DNA of 54,136 bases from assembly GCA_903881565.1 (NCBI GenBank), contig CAIRTR010000271.1, positions 1 to 54,136 on the forward strand, in the 5' to 3' direction. Of the stretch, positions 45,914-54,128 are shown piece by piece. Numbering within the stretch: position 1 is the first letter of the stretch; the number at the start of each line of letters is the position of its first letter. This DNA is from Oligoflexia bacterium (GTDB lineage: Bacteria; Bdellovibrionota; UBA1018). The translations under genes were made by a program, and so were the position numbers. The notes beneath the pieces were generated by a model, which was given only the letters and a program-made list of their open reading frames with translations, was not told the DNA's origin and did no database searches.

Positions 45914-46135
45914 ATGAAAACCATCAATGCCGCCAAATTCAAAGAACAGTGTTTGTCGATTCTAGATCACGTCGAAGCCGATGGACTCATCGTTACGAAG
46001 CACGGCGTGCCCGTTGCCAAGCTGACCCCCATCTCTTCGGACCCCTCCTCCTTGATTGGTTCACTCAAGGGCAAGATCCGTATTTTGAAAGACGATCTAC
46101 TTTCTACAGGAGTCCGTTGGGATGCTGAATCTTGA
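45914..46135 (+). CDS. Phd/YefM-family antitoxin
   Basis: A 73-residue antitoxin. INAAKFKEQCLSILDHVEADG and VTKHGVPVAKLTPI are the Phd/YefM DNA-binding N-terminus; the C-terminal segment (GSLKGKIRILKDDLLSTGVRWD) is the toxin-binding arm, with the GSLKGKI turn common in PIN partners. The stop overlaps the toxin gene by 14 bases. It probably represses its own promoter through the upstream palindromes. Confidence 0.92.
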   Translation: MKTINAAKFKEQCLSILDHVEADGLIVTKHGVPVAKLTPISSDPSSLIGSLKGKIRILKDDLLSTGVRWDAES

Positions 46136-46487
46136 TACCCACATTTTAATCCACGCCCTGGCCGACAAGATAACACCTTCGGAGCGCAGGATTTTGAGCA
46201 AATCTCCGTGGGGGATCTCAGCGATCGTTCTTTGGGAAATTGAAAAGTTGAATTCCCTCAAAAGAATCGAGCTGGATCTTTCAGATTTTGATGTGAAGCA
46301 GGTCCTTCAAAAGATCACGATCTTTCCAATCACGCTCGACGTGTGCATCAATACGCGCAAACTTGACTTCAAGAGCGACCCCGCAGACGAAATAATCGCA
46401 GCGACATCGCTCACTCACAACATAAAGCTACTGACACGAGACAAGAAAATCTTAGGGTCAAAGATCGTTCCGTTGGCGCGGGGTTAA
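46122..46487 (+). CDS. PIN-domain (VapC-like) toxin
   Basis: A 121-residue PIN ribonuclease. The four acidic residues are visible: LNLDTHILIHAL (first Asp), IVLWEIEKL (Glu), SDPADEIIAATSL (Asp) and LLTRDKKIL (Asp). It is inhibited by the Phd-type antitoxin encoded just upstream in a shared mRNA. Members cut specific tRNA or rRNA sites in some bacteria; the target here is unknown. Confidence 0.93.
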   Translation: MLNLDTHILIHALADKITPSERRILSKSPWGISAIVLWEIEKLNSLKRIELDLSDFDVKQVLQKITIFPITLDVCINTRKLDFKSDPADEIIAATSLTHNIKLLTRDKKILGSKIVPLARG

Positions 46488-46587: not shown

Positions 46588-47472
46588 ATGGATTTACAAC
46601 AAAATCAAAATCAGGGGGATCATGAATTCAATCTTAATTTGCTTAAGACACTTGAAAAAATCGAGTCAGTCCTTGGGCTCTCACCCCAAGATATGGCAAG
46701 CCTCCTCAGCGCATCCGAGGAACAATACAAAAATATCAAACTAAGCCGTAACACGCCCACTCTCACTCACCTACGAAGCATGTCCGATGCCCTGGAACTC
46801 AACCTCTCTATGTTGCTTAGCGGACAGATCAATTTTGAAACCCTCTTTGAACATTATCATGGCCGAACGGATCGGTTGCCCGCGCGGTATCTGGAAACTC
46901 ATCACCAGCTTTCTCGTGCTAGAGGCATTCAAGTCATTGACCACTATTTAAGTAAAGTTTTTGGCACAGAGTATTCGCGATCGATTTTTGGTCGTCTTCA
47001 GCTAAAACCAACGCTTTTCACAAATCCGGATACCTATGTCAGTTCGCTCGTGGGCCTCGATTTGCTCGAAGAACTTAAGAAAGACGGGGTCAGTGAGGGG
47101 GCCTTCTCACGAATTGGGCGGTTTAGTGTTGAGGTCAATTCTGAAAACCTCGGAATAAACCTGAAAGAAAAACAAACCGCAAAAGAAGTTTACGGTTCTT
47201 TGTACAACGAGATTTTGCCTCACTACGATCAGGCTTATCATTATCGCATCACTCAGCTTTCAGACATCCGCTGCACTATTACCGCCACCCCAAAAGTAGA
47301 GACTCAAGAAGCCTTTAAGGCAAAAGCACCGGGAAGTCGCGATCTGTGCTGCTTTAAGCAAGGTGTAATTAAATCTTTTCTTGCGAGTTCTCAAAACAAG
47401 TACCCCGCCTTGCGCGAATCAAGCTGCATGTACAAAGGCGACTCTGCCTGCACCTATCATTTGAGCTGGTGA
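46588..47472 (+). CDS. HTH / V4R-like regulator, paralogue 1
   Basis: The start was moved to ATG 46588, preceded by GGGGGA; the TTG frame at 46567 adds seven residues and translates that site. It has 294 residues. The N-terminal 65 resemble an XRE helix-turn-helix (LLKTLEKIESVLGLSPQDMA, then LSMLLSGQINF), although weakly. The middle has PARYLETHHQLSRARGI. The C-terminal 90 residues share three Cys with three neighbours: C254 (CCFKQG), C280 and C288 (ESSCMYKGDSACTYHLSW), the pattern of V4R ligand-binding domains. It converges on the methyltransferase gene, 11 bases apart. It probably senses a small molecule or metal. Confidence 0.78.
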   Translation: MDLQQNQNQGDHEFNLNLLKTLEKIESVLGLSPQDMASLLSASEEQYKNIKLSRNTPTLTHLRSMSDALELNLSMLLSGQINFETLFEHYHGRTDRLPARYLETHHQLSRARGIQVIDHYLSKVFGTEYSRSIFGRLQLKPTLFTNPDTYVSSLVGLDLLEELKKDGVSEGAFSRIGRFSVEVNSENLGINLKEKQTAKEVYGSLYNEILPHYDQAYHYRITQLSDIRCTITATPKVETQEAFKAKAPGSRDLCCFKQGVIKSFLASSQNKYPALRESSCMYKGDSACTYHLSW

Positions 47473-47483
47473 GCTTACCTTAC

Positions 47484-48296
47484 TTACTTCACCAGGTTGA
47501 GTTTGCCTGGACGACTCCCAGTCACAATGAATTTATTGTAAAACAGCACCACGCCGGGCTTATCCAAAAGCTCTCGATATTCAGACTTGAAAGCCTCTAC
47601 TTTGCTTTTGCTCCCAAGAAACTCAGATAAGAACGGCGTCGCATTCTCTAGTTTTTCCGGGATCAAGATTTTTTCATCATTTAGTGCGGCCCCATGACAC
47701 TGAATGGTATCAATGCACCACTCAACCTCTGAGAACCCCGCCTTTAAAAGAAGGGATGGGAGTTTGCGCCCAATTCTGAGATCCACAGGACTTTGTGCCT
47801 CCATTTTGTTAAGGACTTCATCAACGAGTGGCGTGCGTGGATAGATGTTATAGAAGGGACCATCAAAGTCTATGATACACAACTTCCCGTTTGGCCTGAG
47901 ACACCGAAAAATCTCTTGAAGAGCTACGATTCGCATGTTTGCCGCAACATGCTGAAGTACATAGCGTACGATCGCCCAATCAAAGTAGTTGTTAGAAAAT
48001 TCAAGCTTTGAAAGATCCTGCATTTTGAAACTTAGGTTTCCAAACGATGCCCCCGCTCGTTTGGCCTGAGCCAATCGTGTTTCGCAAGCATCGCAACCCA
48101 CTACCGAGACGCGCGGAAAGACTGTTGCAATGTGACGACTCACCACCCCAGATCCACAACCCGCATCAAGAATTCGTGCGCCGTCTTTCGGGCTGAAACC
48201 TCCAAGTTCCAACTCTTTTCTGTAATCATACTTCTGATAAGTCGACTGTTTCTCCAGGCGATCAAATTCATTCTCGGCCTCGAGGACGTAGCTCAT
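47484..48296 (-). CDS. Class I SAM-dependent methyltransferase
   Basis: A 270-residue Methyltransf_11/25-type enzyme. Motif I is ILDAGCGSGVVSRHIA at about 42-57, the acidic ribose-binding residue is in VVGCDACETRL, and a post-motif is FRCLRPNGKLCIIDFDG. The C-terminal half has ALNDEKILIPEKL and a helical tail. A strong AAGGAGA lies six bases before the ATG. It follows the GNAT-like gene by 27 bases on the same strand. UbiE/arsenic-type or small-molecule methylation is possible; the substrate is unknown, but its position suggests it modifies the product of that gene. Confidence 0.9.
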   Translation of the reverse strand: MSYVLEAENEFDRLEKQSTYQKYDYRKELELGGFSPKDGARILDAGCGSGVVSRHIATVFPRVSVVGCDACETRLAQAKRAGASFGNLSFKMQDLSKLEFSNNYFDWAIVRYVLQHVAANMRIVALQEIFRCLRPNGKLCIIDFDGPFYNIYPRTPLVDEVLNKMEAQSPVDLRIGRKLPSLLLKAGFSEVEWCIDTIQCHGAALNDEKILIPEKLENATPFLSEFLGSKSKVEAFKSEYRELLDKPGVVLFYNKFIVTGSRPGKLNLVK

Positions 48297-48323
48297 AATC
48301 TCTCCTTTAGTGTAGGCAACTCG

Positions 48324-49103
48324 TTATGCGGCCATTTTTTCTTCCTGTACAGGCTGGGTGCGAATGAGTAATCGGCCATTCACCAAGGACTCGAGTTTTT
48401 CGAAGCATTCAAAACACCATGGCGAAAGCTCCTTCAGAGACATAAACAGCATCGGCTCACCACCCGCAGAGACCTTCTTAATCGCAGGAAGCTCACCTTG
48501 TTCGTCACTCAATGGCTGGTAACCAAGTTGCGTAAACCAGGTGTTAGTTTTAAATCTTAAAATCGACGCACAAACAGTTTCCCGAATACTGTGTTCCCGC
48601 TGATCTAAAACATGAAACGCCGCCACGAACTCTCTGACAAACTCAGAGAGTTCCTTGTTTCCGCGGTGTTCATAAGCGATAGCAAGGCCTGCACTATAGG
48701 TCACCTCAGTCCCCTGCGATCGATGTCGAGCAAAGGTCTCTGAGAGATTTCGAACATGCCTCTCAGCGTTGGCGTCTTGGGCTGTCCTTAGTAGCGGTAT
48801 AGTAGCATTCGACAAATCACAACGACTGAGGGGCACTTGTCTAAAGCCTGCAACAGGCAGCCAAGCATCTCCATCTTCGACACAAAGAAGGTGATGCCAA
48901 ACAAAATAGTCAGGAGTGTCGACCGGCAAAAAACCGATAGGATATTTCGGACCATAGGCATGAGCTCGCAAACGAACCATTTGACCAAAATATTCCCTCG
49001 CCACCGCGTCGTCGACGCAGCTATAGAAGTTGTCAATTGTTATAACTCTAAATCGTCGTCCCTGGAATGCGCCACCAACATATGCATTTATCACGGGTAA
49101 CAA
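48324..49103 (-). CDS. GNAT-fold protein, distant LuxI/FeeM-like acyltransferase
   Basis: About 259 residues; the start TTG 49103 is uncertain (no ribosome site; GTG 49094 is an alternative). The core resembles GNAT and autoinducer-synthase proteins: YFGQMVRLRAHAYGPKYP followed by an aspartate-rich turn (PVDTPDYFVWHHLLCVE), then AWLPVAGFRQVPLS as in the G-x-x-R strand, YSAGLAIAYEHRGNKELS, and FTQLGYQPLS near the C-terminus. LuxI and N-acyl amino acid synthases share this order. The last 50 residues (FMSLKELSPWCFECFEKLE) match none I know. It lies between a V4R-like regulator gene and a methyltransferase gene on one strand. Confidence 0.55.
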   Translation of the reverse strand: MLPVINAYVGGAFQGRRFRVITIDNFYSCVDDAVAREYFGQMVRLRAHAYGPKYPIGFLPVDTPDYFVWHHLLCVEDGDAWLPVAGFRQVPLSRCDLSNATIPLLRTAQDANAERHVRNLSETFARHRSQGTEVTYSAGLAIAYEHRGNKELSEFVREFVAAFHVLDQREHSIRETVCASILRFKTNTWFTQLGYQPLSDEQGELPAIKKVSAGGEPMLFMSLKELSPWCFECFEKLESLVNGRLLIRTQPVQEEKMAA

Positions 49104-49168
49104 ATCGGAATTTGCGCATCGCTACTTGAGGGACTTTTTTTGAGGTTTTTTTTGAGGTTTGAGATTAA

Positions 49169-50068
49169 CTAATGGGCTTTACAGTAGAATAGATTCTCAT
49201 CCCAACTCAAATGGTAGACGCATTTAGCGCCGCCTTCGTACATGCATTCGGACTCAACCACCGTAGCGAAACGGTTAGTTAAATATCCCAGGAAAGCAGA
49301 AAGGACCCCTTGCTTAAAGCGACACATGGATTTAGTCCCAAATCGATTACTTCGAAAAAGCTCCTGCGTCTCCTCGGTTGGAACGGCCGTGGTTGTACAT
49401 GAATCCGAAGTGAGCTTTGTAAGACGATAGTGAAAAGCTTGATCAAAATGTCCTGGAATTTCTTCATGCAACGTTCGATACAATTCACTTGGAGAACTTG
49501 CACGTCCGAGAATTTTTGAAATCGGTGTATTGTTTGAAACATGGTACATCATCCTTCCCATCTCTGACAGGTGTCCCGCATCGAAGCCTTCCTGACAAAG
49601 AAGATTCAGAAGATCAACGCCTACAAGCGGACTGATGAAGGCTTCATGGTCAAGCAAGCAGGCTCGCGAAATCTGCAGCCGCGAAAGTAAATTCCGCGAA
49701 TACGGAAATCCATGAAGGGACTCGACGTATTTCAGTATTCCCAAGATAGAGCGCGCCCGCCCCAGTTGGTGCTCCGGAGGGAGGTACCGCTCCGGAAGAA
49801 AATACCGGTCTCCCGAATGCTGTTTTGCGAGGGCCAAATAGTCAATTTTTCCAGAAAATAAAGATGAAAGACTTAATCCTGTCTGGTTACAAATCGACTG
49901 AAGAGATTGCACATCAAATGATTTGCGCCCTTGATCAATCTCATCAAATTCATTGAATGAAAGCTGCAAATATTCTCTGAATTGATCTTTAGAACACCCT
50001 ATGGCATCCCGAATTCGCCCCAAGGTCAGGCGAAGTTGAATTTCAAATGATGCAGTTTCACTTTCCAT
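49169..50068 (-). CDS. HTH / V4R-like regulator, paralogue 2
   Basis: A 299-residue paralogue (ATG 50068, GTG 50074 alternative). HTH-like region: LGRIRDAIGCSKDQFREYLQ, then LSLSSLFSGKIDY. The central PERYLPPEHQLGRARSI matches paralogue 1. The C-terminal Cys set is C249 (CRFKQG), C275 and C283 (VESECMYEGGAKCVYHLSW), with a further tail Cys. It is the first gene of a likely operon with the acyltransferase-like gene (65 bp later) and the methyltransferase gene. It is divergent from paralogue 3, with about 130 bp between them that carries phased GTCA repeats. Autogenous control is plausible but not shown. Confidence 0.78.
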   Translation of the reverse strand: MESETASFEIQLRLTLGRIRDAIGCSKDQFREYLQLSFNEFDEIDQGRKSFDVQSLQSICNQTGLSLSSLFSGKIDYLALAKQHSGDRYFLPERYLPPEHQLGRARSILGILKYVESLHGFPYSRNLLSRLQISRACLLDHEAFISPLVGVDLLNLLCQEGFDAGHLSEMGRMMYHVSNNTPISKILGRASSPSELYRTLHEEIPGHFDQAFHYRLTKLTSDSCTTTAVPTEETQELFRSNRFGTKSMCRFKQGVLSAFLGYLTNRFATVVESECMYEGGAKCVYHLSWDENLFYCKAH

Positions 50069-50093
50069 AGCCACAGCAAAACGTGTATCGCAT
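50058..50093 (-). other. Possible 11-codon leader ORF overlapping paralogue 2
   Basis: On the minus strand, GGAGG (50097-50101) is followed after three bases by ATG at 50093, opening an 11-codon frame (MRYTFCCGYGK) whose stop lies inside the first codons of paralogue 2. The paralogue's own start has no such site. The three-base spacing is short, so this is only a candidate for translational coupling. Confidence 0.25.
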
Positions 50094-50104
50094 TAACCTC
50101 CGAA

Positions 50105-50139
50105 TGACAAGTCAGGTCAAAGAGCGTCAACCGAAGTCA
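50105..50139. promoter_or_regulatory. Phased GTCA repeats in the divergent regulator promoter
   Basis: GTCA occurs at 50111, 50116, 50126 and 50136, the last three spaced exactly 10 bases, with an inverted TGAC at 50105. It lies in the 130-bp gap between the divergent paralogues 2 and 3. Helical-turn phasing suggests a binding site for one or more of the regulators. Confidence 0.4.
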
Positions 50140-50197
50140 TTGAGTAGATTTCCGGCTTTTTGGACATTTCTGGGCAAATGCGTTATTTAGGCTAAGC

Positions 50198-51136
50198 TTG
50201 GCTCAACAATCACTAAACCTTTCACGCTCTGTCTCAGAAATTGTCACAGCATCCGCATTTTCTGAAGAAGAATTGTTGGACGCCCTGGAGCTGTGTGCAT
50301 CTGACTGGCAACTGCAGATTACCGGAAAAAAAGACTTTTCCATTATCACCTTAGTGCGACTCGCGGAATCTTTAGATTTTAGCGTCGAAAACCTGCTCCT
50401 CGGAAAAGTGGATCCATCCTCTATCCGCAAAAGACACAACCCCATTGGCGCGGCAGCGCTCCCCGAAAGGTATTCAAATAGTTCTGAACTCGTCTGCAGA
50501 GCTCGCACAGTACTGAACATCATAAAATTTACTGACGAACAATTTGGCCGAAACTTTTCGACTACTCTTCTTCGAAAACTCCAGCTCAGACGAGAGGACT
50601 TCTCAAAACCTGAACGCCTAATCCACCCTTTTATCATCACCGATCTTCTGAAAACATGCGTCGAATCAGGGATCCACTCAAACCACATGCTTGCGATGGG
50701 GAGTCAAGCACTCGCCATCAACCGTGGCACAGGCGTTGACAATGTCCTTGCTGCCTGTAAAACCCCCAGAAAAGTTTACGAGACGCTCATTGAGCAGGTC
50801 ATAGGCCTTCATTATGACCGTCTCTATCATTACCGTTTTCACCATTTCACCAAGGATGACGTAATCGCGGAAGTTTCACCCCAAAAAGATATTCACGACG
50901 CACTCAAGCAAAGAGTCGTAGGCACAAGAGAGACCTGCCTCTACAAACAAGGGGTCACGGCATCTTTTTTAGGACATATCGGAATGAAACCCGCGACAAT
51001 TCGCGAGTCAAGTTGCATGTATCTGGGCGACCGATGCTGTACCTATCACCTCAGCTGGCCTAAGCCGCGACTTGAATCTTATACACGCACCGCTCAGCGG
51101 CCCCATGATAGTGGCACTCTTTTTCGGTCAAGTTAA
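50198..51136 (+). CDS. HTH / V4R-like regulator, paralogue 3
   Basis: A 312-residue paralogue from TTG 50198, which has AGG six bases upstream. HTH-like region: SEIVTASAFSEEELLDALEL, then FSVENLLLGKVDP. The central LPERYSNSSELVCRARTV and the C-terminal Cys set C247 (CLYKQG), C273 and C281 (RESSCMYLGDRCCTYHLSW) align with the others. After the domain ends at W287 there are 25 extra residues that merely read the antisense of paralogue 4's 3' end (77-base convergent overlap). The relatives end at or near that Trp, so the tail may come from loss of a stop codon. Confidence 0.77.
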   Translation: MAQQSLNLSRSVSEIVTASAFSEEELLDALELCASDWQLQITGKKDFSIITLVRLAESLDFSVENLLLGKVDPSSIRKRHNPIGAAALPERYSNSSELVCRARTVLNIIKFTDEQFGRNFSTTLLRKLQLRREDFSKPERLIHPFIITDLLKTCVESGIHSNHMLAMGSQALAINRGTGVDNVLAACKTPRKVYETLIEQVIGLHYDRLYHYRFHHFTKDDVIAEVSPQKDIHDALKQRVVGTRETCLYKQGVTASFLGHIGMKPATIRESSCMYLGDRCCTYHLSWPKPRLESYTRTAQRPHDSGTLFRSS

Positions 51137-51968
51137 AGGACTTCGCGCCGATGTAGTGAGGAAATTCCGAGATGAGTCCCTTCTTATAACGACACAGGCA
51201 ATCGCCCAGAATCTCATCGCGATACTCGACTTCACGCATGTGTTCGCGAGGATTAATCGAGACCACGAGCCCCGTACGCTGCACTTCTTCAATCTGATAT
51301 TCAAAGTTGGATTCGTAGTGATGCATATTCAAAAGCAGGGTCTGAATCAGTTTCACGGACGATTCTTGCGTCTCATACACCGGGTGCATGACGCCGTTAA
51401 AATCTTCGGAACGCGTTTGCTTAATGAGCGCCGCGAAGTTCTTCTCAGTCAGCGCGCCATCGGTGATCGCGTGCCTCATGAGATCCAACTGACAATGCGT
51501 GCTGATGCTTTGATCGGGATTCACGAAAAGCAGACTCTCCAAATCAAATCTGGCTAGCGCTTTTTGGGTGTACGAATGGCCTTCTTCTTCGTTCAAGAAT
51601 TGAAGCAGCGGGAACACTTCGCGCACTCTTGAGAAATGAAAATTACGATAGCGCTCAGGCACCTCAGGCAAGCGCTTGAACCGCTCCGCGATCTTCCAAT
51701 AGTTCACCCGCCCCATAAGCATTGAATCGACGTTGACGCCAAAATACTCCGAAGCGCGCTGGAGCTGATACGGCAGCAAACTCTGCGTTCCATTTTCCAC
51801 ACGGCACACAGCAGTCTGATGGATGTCCAGAAGCTGGCCTAGGTCTGTTTGGGAAACGCCCGCGCTCTTGCGGATCTTCTTAATCGTTTCGCCTAAAACC
51901 GCCTGGATGTCGCTTTCGCGAATGGTTTCAATTTTTTTAACTAGTTTCTTGGGGTTCTTTACCGTCAT
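51060..51968 (-). CDS. HTH / V4R-like regulator, paralogue 4
   Basis: The most typical regulator of the four, 302 residues. The helix-turn-helix is clear: LGETIKKIRKSAGVSQTDLG, then LDIHQTAVCRVENGTQSL. The middle keeps PERYRNFHFSRVREVF. The C-terminal module has C259 (CRYKKG), C285 and C294 (EKECHYHGAAERCVYKIQ). The GAGAGAA ribosome site precedes the ATG at 51968, and the upstream region is very AT-rich with a CATAATTATG palindrome. Its sequence differs more from the other three than they do from each other, which suggests an older split or another ligand. Confidence 0.82.
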   Translation of the reverse strand: MTVKNPKKLVKKIETIRESDIQAVLGETIKKIRKSAGVSQTDLGQLLDIHQTAVCRVENGTQSLLPYQLQRASEYFGVNVDSMLMGRVNYWKIAERFKRLPEVPERYRNFHFSRVREVFPLLQFLNEEEGHSYTQKALARFDLESLLFVNPDQSISTHCQLDLMRHAITDGALTEKNFAALIKQTRSEDFNGVMHPVYETQESSVKLIQTLLLNMHHYESNFEYQIEEVQRTGLVVSINPREHMREVEYRDEILGDCLCRYKKGLISEFPHYIGAKSFNLTEKECHYHGAAERCVYKIQVAA

Positions 51969-52039: not shown

Positions 52040-52924
52040 TTATGACGGGTTGCCGCCTTTCCGACATGCCACCGCCGCCGCAGCTAACGCCCCTTTGCGG
52101 GACTCCAGAATCAACAGGACCGAGCTGGCGCCGACTAAGCCGGCCGCTGCCCATTGCGTGGGTTTGGCCAAAACGCCTAGAATCGCCCATTCTAAGCAGA
52201 CGGCCCAAGGGATTCTGGACAACGTCAACATCGACGCGCGAGGCGCATCCAGCACACGAAACAGGTAGAAAAAAGCGTATTGAATGGTGAGAACCAAAAG
52301 CAAGGTGACGAACAAATCGTGGGGCAACACGCTGAGCACTTGAACCGCCTCGCCGCTTGCCAAAAGTGCCACGCCCGCAACCAACACGGACACAAAAAAA
52401 CCCGTTGCAATCGACTGCCGCACACTCTGCGCCTCAAGCATCAGGGAGCGCGCCAGTACAAAGCCCGTGCCTTGAATAAAGCCGCCAATCACTCCAAGAT
52501 AGGAACTCAAAATCAAAGCCGGGTTTATAAAAACCGCCGCAAGCGAAAAGCCCAAGGCCCCGAAACTCAGCCCCTTCAACTTCTCTTTGAGGTAAATTCG
52601 CCCGAGCAGCACGCCAAAAACACTGCCCATTGTGGACGAGACCAAAGCGGCGCTCGTGAGTCCCGCTTTTTGAACCTTGAAAATAAAAACCTGGGTGAGG
52701 CCAAAGAGCAGGCCGCGCAACAACATCTTGGGCTGCAAAAGACCTTGCAACGTGTGTTTAGGCCAAATAAGCAGATGCAAAAACCAACCGCACGCGGCGG
52801 CTGCGGCAAAAAGCGCAAGCCCCCCATCGTGGCCGTGCATACGAACAAAGAGGTAAGCAAAGGTGAGAATTCCTCCGTAGATCACCCCATAAAAAACACC
52901 AAAAGTCGGAAAGCCGATCGCCAT
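52040..52924 (-). CDS. EamA/DMT-family transporter
   Basis: A 294-residue membrane protein with about ten spans in two repeated halves, the EamA (drug/metabolite transporter) fold. LTSAALVSSTMGSVFGVLLGRIYLKEKLKG in pieces is the typical end of the first repeat (the KEK turn). It exports or imports a small metabolite; the substrate is unknown. It lies 71 bp from paralogue 4 on the same strand but with its own 3' end, and divergent from the alpha/beta hydrolase gene. Confidence 0.87.
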   Translation of the reverse strand: MAIGFPTFGVFYGVIYGGILTFAYLFVRMHGHDGGLALFAAAAACGWFLHLLIWPKHTLQGLLQPKMLLRGLLFGLTQVFIFKVQKAGLTSAALVSSTMGSVFGVLLGRIYLKEKLKGLSFGALGFSLAAVFINPALILSSYLGVIGGFIQGTGFVLARSLMLEAQSVRQSIATGFFVSVLVAGVALLASGEAVQVLSVLPHDLFVTLLLVLTIQYAFFYLFRVLDAPRASMLTLSRIPWAVCLEWAILGVLAKPTQWAAAGLVGASSVLLILESRKGALAAAAVACRKGGNPS

Positions 52925-52988: not shown

Positions 52989-53017
52989 TTGAAAACGATC
53001 AAGTCGCCCGTTATAAG
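52989..53017 (+). promoter_or_regulatory. Promoter of the EF-hand hydrolase gene
   Basis: TTGAAA (52989-52994) and TATAAG (53012-53017) are exactly 17 bases apart, each one base from consensus. Transcription should start about 53024, only a few bases before the ATG at 53028, giving an almost leaderless mRNA. The TTG at 52989, start of the longest frame, is part of this -35. Confidence 0.75.
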
Positions 53018-53027
53018 CCCTCTCAAT

Positions 53028-54128
53028 ATGCAAAACACATCACTCGTTGTTGCGATTCTTGCTTTGTGTATCACTCTCCCCGCATCGGCCAGCCAAAGGC
53101 CCGGCCCCGAAGAAAATCTGGTGCTAAACGTCGCTGAAGGGGTCGCACTTTCGGCCAAGATTCAACTCCCCACCACGGCGCCTCGCGCGGCCTTCGTTAT
53201 TCTCCCCGGCAGCGGCAACGTAGGAACGGACGGAGACGTGAGCAGTCCATTTGTGGGCTTCGGATATAAAGGTCAACCCGCAAAACTCAGTGACCAACTC
53301 TCGGCCACTCTGGCCGAGACAGGCTCTGCAAGTTTGCGATACGCAAAACGCGGTGTTGAAAATGTGGCGGAGCTTGCCCATCAAACGGCGCCTTACCTAG
53401 TCGCTGATGCGCACGTGGCTTTGCAGGCGCTCAAGCAGCGTTTTCCAGGAATTCCTGTCGGCTTCGTCGGATTTAGTGAAGGAGCCCTGGTTGCGACGAT
53501 GGTGGCAGCCGAAGAACCCGTGGATTTTCTGTTCCTCCTCGCGCCCCCTTCTCGCTCCATGGATGACATGCTCGCTTATCAGTTTTTGCAATGGCCCGTG
53601 GACCTTCTCAGGCGCAAGTTAGATGCCAATGGCGACGGGGAACTCAATGCTTCAGAACTTGCGACCCTCGATCCAAGCCATCAACTCCCCTTGCTCGGAC
53701 TTCTCTGGGGTGCCGATGCTGCGAAATGGGAAAACTTAGACGTGAATCAAAGCTGCAGTCTTTCGTTTGACGCAGAGATTGCTCCGACCTACGCGAAGTT
53801 CTTAGGGACTGCGATGAGCGTGATTCGAAGCCCCTCGTTCGCTGGCTGGTATACTTCGTTTCGTGATCTCCCTGCTTTTTCGACTTTCGCTTCTCGCATC
53901 ACGGCACCTGTCTACATGTATCAAGGGATGGAAGACGCCCAAGTTAATTGGAGCTGGGCTGTTTCGTCTCAGCAATCTTTTGCCGGTAAAACCAACTTAA
54001 GATTTTTCGAGGGCCTGGGCCATGCTTTTGCGCCGATGGAAGGCGCTATTGGCGAAGTGAAGACCTCAGGACCATTTTCAAGCACGCTGCTTGAGGCGCT
54101 GGCCCAAGACGTGAAATCGGCGCTTTAG
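53028..54128 (+). CDS. Exported alpha/beta hydrolase with an EF-hand loop
   Basis: From ATG 53028, 366 residues. A signal peptide (about 1-22, ending PASASQ) precedes an alpha/beta-hydrolase fold: an oxyanion-like ILPGSGNVGTDG, the nucleophile elbow GFSEGA (Ser150), a likely acid in YQGMEDAQVNW and a catalytic His in EGLGHAFAP. An insertion between core strands carries a canonical EF-hand loop DANGDGELNASE (residues 199-210), so calcium may control or stabilise it. The family is close to exported dienelactone-hydrolase/BAAT-like proteins; the substrate is unknown. The promoter lies directly upstream. Confidence 0.85.
   Translation: MQNTSLVVAILALCITLPASASQRPGPEENLVLNVAEGVALSAKIQLPTTAPRAAFVILPGSGNVGTDGDVSSPFVGFGYKGQPAKLSDQLSATLAETGSASLRYAKRGVENVAELAHQTAPYLVADAHVALQALKQRFPGIPVGFVGFSEGALVATMVAAEEPVDFLFLLAPPSRSMDDMLAYQFLQWPVDLLRRKLDANGDGELNASELATLDPSHQLPLLGLLWGADAAKWENLDVNQSCSLSFDAEIAPTYAKFLGTAMSVIRSPSFAGWYTSFRDLPAFSTFASRITAPVYMYQGMEDAQVNWSWAVSSQQSFAGKTNLRFFEGLGHAFAPMEGAIGEVKTSGPFSSTLLEALAQDVKSAL

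Follow-up and report, generated by a model that had tools for sequence, protein, structure and literature searches.

What is the purpose of a compact run of genes in which four related regulators enclose an acyltransferase-like gene and a methyltransferase gene? The run lies in contig CAIRTR010000271.1 of an Oligoflexia bacterium, analysed here at its full length of 54,136 nucleotides (the window), which is one entire contig of a draft genome of 4.56 Mb. An earlier note on this DNA had claimed six open reading frames (ORFs), all confirmed at the coordinates given—the acyltransferase gene GN, the methyltransferase gene MT, and regulators A–D (Table 1)—and had read them as a unit that makes and reads a signal. 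That interpretation survives with corrections, supported by gene content, fold predictions, neighbours that are conserved and in part mutually exclusive, and an unusual C-terminal tail. The cassette is probably an unrecognised acyl-signal system, and as such is a new variant of acyl-signal synthase–receptor logic, outside LuxI/LuxR. The more specific reading, to which we give slightly better than even chances, is that an N-acyl amino acid-type signal is made, is capped (by MT here, by cyclisation elsewhere), and is read by V4R-type receptors.

The structural model of GN, computed from an alignment including nine relatives (predicted local distance difference test [pLDDT] 90.5, predicted template modelling score [pTM] 0.87), has the GNAT-like fold of autoinducer synthases. 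Its best matches among solved structures are BjaI (Z 16.3 over 192 residues), RpaI (16.2), FeeM (16.1), and LasI (15.2), with MesI and TofI not far behind in the VIA list, among ordinary GNATs. The placement comes from fold comparison only: sequence searches against solved structures and NCBIfam returned nothing useful, and no family match to GN was found in Pfam, NCBIfam, or PADLOC. Autoind_synth (PF00765) matched neither GN nor anything else in the window genome. Despite the similar fold, GN also forms a sequence family separate from FeeM, with the FeeM model (PF21926) silent for the window GN and throughout its genome, and matching one of 15 GN members at 0.006. Profile alignment of GN to a LuxI set (LasI, EsaI, TofI, MesI, BjaI, TraI, and others) gave P values of 1e-5 to 1e-3, versus 0.4–0.8 for controls. 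In the residue numbering customary for the LuxI family, K/R46, Y/F50, and K/R88 of GN align with R24, F28, and R69, and D62 and D65 with D45 and D48, with D65 present in 55/55 and D62 in 49/55 GN proteins; W34, E101, and R104 are not kept in this alignment, leaving the full signature set incomplete. Fold and part of the active site make GN a relative of the N-acyl-homoserine lactone (AHL) synthases, but it stands outside their family. The label "GNAT/LuxI-like" is therefore right as to fold and wrong if taken as membership among AHL synthases.

The regulators are genuine paralogues: a search of the genome with B recovered A, C, D, and a fifth copy, at E values of 2e-58 to 4e-18. The resemblance is beyond chance, also because sets like this one are found again in other genomes of the phylum. 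All four regulators contain the motifs that the earlier note had seen, namely the turn ending the helix-turn-helix (HTH; SGQINF, SGKIDY, LGKVDP, and MGRVNY), the central LP/VP-x-RY segment (LPARY, LPERY, LPERY, and VPERY), and a Cys...ExxC...C module. Only D has a clear canonical HTH (HTH_3, 3e-8), that of A–C being degenerate. V4R (PF02830) was matched by A, B, and C below the Pfam cut-off and by one family member above it (36.6 vs 31 bits). The model of B (pLDDT 87.3) placed residues 105–292 in the V4R/H-NOX/Bet3 fold, with matches to H-NOX (Z 15.7), VirS (13.3), and Bet3 (about 11), so structure prediction bears out the earlier suggestion for the C-terminal module as it does that for GN. 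An acyl ligand for the V4R-like domain of B is plausible by analogy, because a Bet3 relative among its structure matches (6aq3) carries covalently bound palmitate. The fifth regulator, of A/B/C type, lies on another short contig (C305:2090-3004, L037) without an adjoining GN, in the manner of a LuxR solo.

In A, B, and C, the module reads C-x22-E-x2-C-x7-C (spacing 23-3-8), with one residue more in D; three Cys and one acidic residue thus stand at the spacing of V4R zinc sites. The corresponding sites are C149, Q171, C174, and C182 in Vibrio cholerae H-NOX (PMC7108781), and C151, E172, C177, and C185, as printed, in DmpR (PMC7264223). DmpR, PoxR, MopR, and MsvR share with the present regulators the V4R/H-NOX fold and the three Cys plus one Glu at similar spacing, but differ in that here an N-terminal XRE-like HTH replaces the AAA+ or other output and an acyl-signal-type synthase adjoins. 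Sequence alignment of the V4R half to PoxR failed. The proximal His is absolutely conserved in H-NOX proteins (PMC7108781), and no conserved His was found at the corresponding helix end in the regulator alignment, for which reason haem-based sensing of the H-NOX kind was rejected. Some proteins with such zinc sites are redox sensors, and the closest NCBIfam model to the regulators is that of MsvR, both consistent with MsvR- or DmpR-like sensors of metal, of redox state, or of aromatic or fatty ligands from outside, which would induce GN and MT in a response or detoxification pathway. This explanation appears improbable, since pairing with GN persists where the Cys site is missing, in a second regulator clade and in many D-type proteins, and since a detoxification enzyme need not pair so constantly with a regulator or co-segregate with it by subfamily.

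The pairing itself is widespread in Bdellovibrionota, where relatives of the genes were found co-located in many other genomes. GN was found in 15/58 relatives searched (14 convincing) and, by an alignment-based search, in 82/340 genomes and 48/175 genera of the phylum, named matches including Pseudobdellovibrio, Bdellovibrio, Bdellovibrionaceae, Bacteriovorax, and Oligoflexia metagenome-assembled genomes. A narrower alignment yielded 8 named loci, a single-protein search of genome contigs gave no relative, and two mixed alignments used for the contig search were too diverse; searches of plasmids, phages, and viral contigs detected no GN relative. Neighbourhoods were counted for 55 GN genes. 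An A/B/C-type HTH–V4R regulator stands near GN in 50 of these loci, within 2 kb in 48, with 40 pairs convergent and 28 overlapping at their 3′ ends; a D-type regulator is present in 28/55. Full-length regulators occur in 14/14 convincing GN-positive relatives versus 7/44 others (P 1e-8), although G015, counted among the seven, does encode a divergent GN whose last residues are RAA. Distances among GN proteins and among their partner regulators are correlated (r 0.72, or 0.52 without the second GN subfamily; 0/2000 permutations in each case), a pattern that either co-evolution or shared descent could produce. Members of the second GN subfamily, however, are partnered exclusively by regulators of the second clade, even in two genomes that have both subfamilies. 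The four receptors of the window are a local expansion: the "several receptors" of the earlier note hold here but not as a general layout, where one or two are usual. Loci of the second GN subfamily also contain XRE-type genes of about 105 residues adjoining the regulator (L070 2608-2931, L101 9998-10339, L102 6836-7141, and L104 6769-7071).

An acyltransferase fold adjoining XRE-like regulators, a PIN-domain gene upstream, and the matches of D to XRE control-type profiles are also what a GNAT–HTH toxin–antitoxin or phage-defence module would present. GNAT toxins are small tRNA acetylases encoded in one operon with their antitoxin. GN is LuxI/FeeM-like, mostly convergent to its regulator, and accompanied by tailoring partners, and the PADLOC matches were to a generic HTH and methyltransferase only; a toxin–antitoxin or defence module was rejected on that ground and is very improbable.

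Plain LuxI/LuxR was likewise ruled out by the family model and the E101/R104 pair. Common to both systems are the synthase fold, D45, D48, the basic residues at 24 and 69, linked one-component receptors, and a C-terminal Ala-Ala in some TraI-type synthases. GN loci differ in lacking a LuxR-type receptor, E101/R104, and a PF00765 match, and in adding MT or ThiF; instead of an autoinducer-binding domain and GerE-type HTH, their regulators have an N-terminal XRE-like HTH and a V4R-like fold.

The partner enzymes are informative as to the possible product. The paralogue previously described as lying upstream of GN and MT on the same strand is B, and the three co-directional genes are separated by gaps of 65 bp (B–GN) and 27 bp (GN–MT). 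An MT of the window's family was found in 21/55 GN loci, a ThiF/E1-like gene (recognised by neighbour clustering and matching PF00899 at 115–136 bits) in 26/55, and both in none. The methyltransferase of the earlier note is therefore one of a pair of alternatives that exclude each other, its counterpart being ThiF-like. The hypergeometric probability of this exclusion (5e-9) is uncorrected for relatedness of the loci and hence overstated; on the GN tree, however, the MT/ThiF label changes 8 times, at least 2–3 of them forced by well-supported branches, and sister loci differ (L084 with ThiF, L091 with MT). Genome-wide among the relatives, MT-family genes above 130 bits occur in 9/9 MT-type and 0/5 ThiF-type GN genomes, almost only at GN loci, and ThiF of the GN-locus group (above 270 bits) occurs in ThiF-type genomes plus one whose GN is divergent. 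Alpha/beta-hydrolases, which fall into three groups, accompany GN in 33/55 loci; the group to which the window hydrolase belongs, ABH3, is found at 7 loci, all MT-type, and its relatives adjoin GN, MT, or regulators in L022, L029, L032, L033, and L034. Six Bdellovibrio/Pseudobdellovibrio loci (L069, L071, L072, L073, L074, and L078) have, beside ThiF, a PALP enzyme (PF00291) nearest to cysteine synthase and SbnA; a special amino acid for building the signal may come from this enzyme. Neighbour cluster 0, comprising sensor kinases and response regulators, was left aside as generic.

The ThiF-type loci resemble the OxzAB, TyzACB, and TrzAS clusters. The route in Mycobacterium and Pseudoalteromonas starts with an N-acyltransferase, whose N-acyl amino acids a ThiF-type enzyme then cyclises with ATP to oxazolones; the authors remark on the likeness of these products to AHLs and describe their role as unresolved (PMC10404671, PMC12856293). 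The nearest solved folds to mycobacterial TyzA are FeeM and BjaI (PMC10404671), the same as for GN. In both settings, a FeeM/BjaI-fold N-acyltransferase adjoins a ThiF-type cyclase, but GN loci add dedicated regulators, and the window has MT where ThiF would be expected. The full set of acyltransferase, ThiF, and oxidase is absent: no ThiF was found at the window locus, and no flavin-dependent oxidase relative in any GN locus. That such pairs make oxazolones without a known signalling role (PMC12856293, PMC10404671), and that the FeeM-type genes of this phylum found with ThiF and a nitroreductase lack adjoining HTH–V4R regulators, would fit a small N-acyl lipid biosynthetic cluster—for an antibiotic, surfactant, or membrane lipid—whose feedback regulators bind product or precursor inside the cell, with no cell-to-cell message. 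This alternative is unlikely, though it deserves serious attention, for no tailoring enzyme accompanies GN as constantly as the regulators do (50/55), and instability of the synthase, if that is what its tail means, suits a signal more than a bulk product.

Those FeeM-type synthases lie beside ThiF in L178, L179, L180, and L181, some fused to a PilZ (c-di-GMP) domain; three of the four loci also carry a nitroreductase-family gene, and the FeeM–ThiF–nitroreductase loci are likely complete acyl-oxazolone pathways in Bdellovibrionota. For the GN–MT pair, a possible product type is that of the N-acylated amino acid methyl esters (NAMEs). The synthase gene for NAMEs is not known (PMC11580390), and therefore no sequence comparison with GN–MT is possible.

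The tail of GN is a further shared feature. The final residue is Ala in 47/55 GN proteins, compared with 7.4% of other ORFs at the same loci (P 9e-38), and an Ala-Ala end following a variable linker is present in 35/55, compared with 2.3%. Regulators, MT, and hydrolases have no Ala tail; ThiF ends in Ala in 12/26 cases, with KAA in several Bdellovibrio-group loci, and KAA or KVA ends (Lys-x-Ala) are common among FeeM proteins of the phylum. TraI-type AHL synthases (L165, L166, and L128 21235-21870) have GN-like Ala-Ala ends (VAA, LAA, and SAA). An origin as a by-product of overlapping 3′ ends was ruled out, the final Ala being found in 24/27 GN genes without overlap versus 23/28 with it. The GN end resembles the ssrA tag, which is read by ClpX, and would, by this likeness, drive turnover of GN. 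LasI and RhlI have been reported as substrates of Lon and ClpXP (PMC13043044). The tmRNA gene of the window genome is at a contig end, and its tag is unreadable.

Under the preferred reading of a capped N-acyl amino acid signal, GN would transfer a fatty acyl group from acyl-acyl carrier protein or acyl-coenzyme A to an amine; the fold and gene company of GN suggest an amino acid as the most likely acceptor. MT, translated beside GN, would then methylate the product, most simply turning its carboxylate into a neutral ester, and the ThiF-like cyclase in its place at sister loci would close the carboxylate to an oxazolone; this cap chemistry is modelled on the Tyz, Trz, and Oxz pathways, the either/or pattern being observed. 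Methylation of the carboxylate is the weakest step, a guess that the either/or pattern suggests by analogy. The neutral product would spread by diffusion or export and bind all four regulators at their V4R/H-NOX-like domains, altering how their HTHs contact DNA; the cassette is probably itself among the targets. Removal or recycling of the signal would fall to the alpha/beta-hydrolase, and rapid loss of GN through its Ala-Ala tail would make signal output track transcription. The four receptors, arising by local duplication, could differ in ligand or targets.

Several points weigh against this scheme. We infer, rather than observe, that the product is acylated and methyl-capped, that it diffuses and binds the regulators, and that regulation and cell-to-cell function follow. 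C-, N-, or other O-methylation by MT is equally likely, 8/55 loci have neither MT nor ThiF, and the degenerate HTHs of A–C might not bind DNA alone. A search for an operator-like sequence common to the regions upstream of GN and the regulators found none above chance. GN occurs patchily (5/24 Bdellovibrio-group genomes, in one genus), as expected of an accessory trait no less than of a signal system. An ordinary AHL is an unlikely product of GN, because the E101/R104 pair of AHL synthases is not kept.

No description of the GN–receptor pairing, or of a native acyl-signal system in this predator phylum, was found in the open-licence literature. If the scheme is true, predatory bacteria of the phylum communicate chemically, by means of a synthase and a receptor that are both accessible to immediate testing, and the MT/ThiF interchange would show one signal scaffold being given different private heads. 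That acyl-oxazolones would thereby gain a signalling role is less likely than not. GN loci also offer candidate receptors and candidate genes.

Table 1. Features of the GN cassette and the adjacent hydrolase gene in the window
Feature	Position	Strand	Description
Regulator A	46588..47472	+	294 aa, degenerate XRE-like HTH and V4R/H-NOX-like C-terminal domain; convergent with MT
MT	47484..48296	-	270 aa, class I S-adenosylmethionine-dependent methyltransferase
GN	48324..49103	-	259 aa, LuxI/FeeM-fold N-acyltransferase, candidate signal synthase; C-terminus EEKMAA
GN C-terminal Ala-Ala codons and stop	48324..48332	-	candidate ssrA-like degron
Regulator B	49169..50074	-	301 aa, HTH and V4R/H-NOX-like domain; leads the B-GN-MT run
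Regulator C	50198..51136	+	312 aa, HTH and V4R/H-NOX-like domain; divergent from B
Regulator D	51060..51968	-	302 aa, canonical HTH_3 and more divergent V4R-like domain; D-type clade
Alpha/beta-hydrolase, ABH3 group	52989..54128	+	beyond the range of the earlier note

GN is given with a TTG start, but conservation sets in only near 49070 and the true start is uncertain. A/T-rich 12-bp tandem repeats without clear meaning (49126-49159) lie in the gap separating the B stop codon from GN, and the 3′ end of C overlaps D. The PIN-domain gene (46122-46487, +), a typical toxin–antitoxin half, is directly upstream of A. Away from GN loci, weak Autoind_synth matches of about 285 residues, each beside a gene for about 265 residues (L116, L117, L119, L121, and L122), may represent a further LuxI-like family of the phylum. 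Between D and the hydrolase gene stands an EamA-type transporter gene (52040-52924, -), a relative of which adjoins a regulator in L032 and which could be a candidate exporter of the product.

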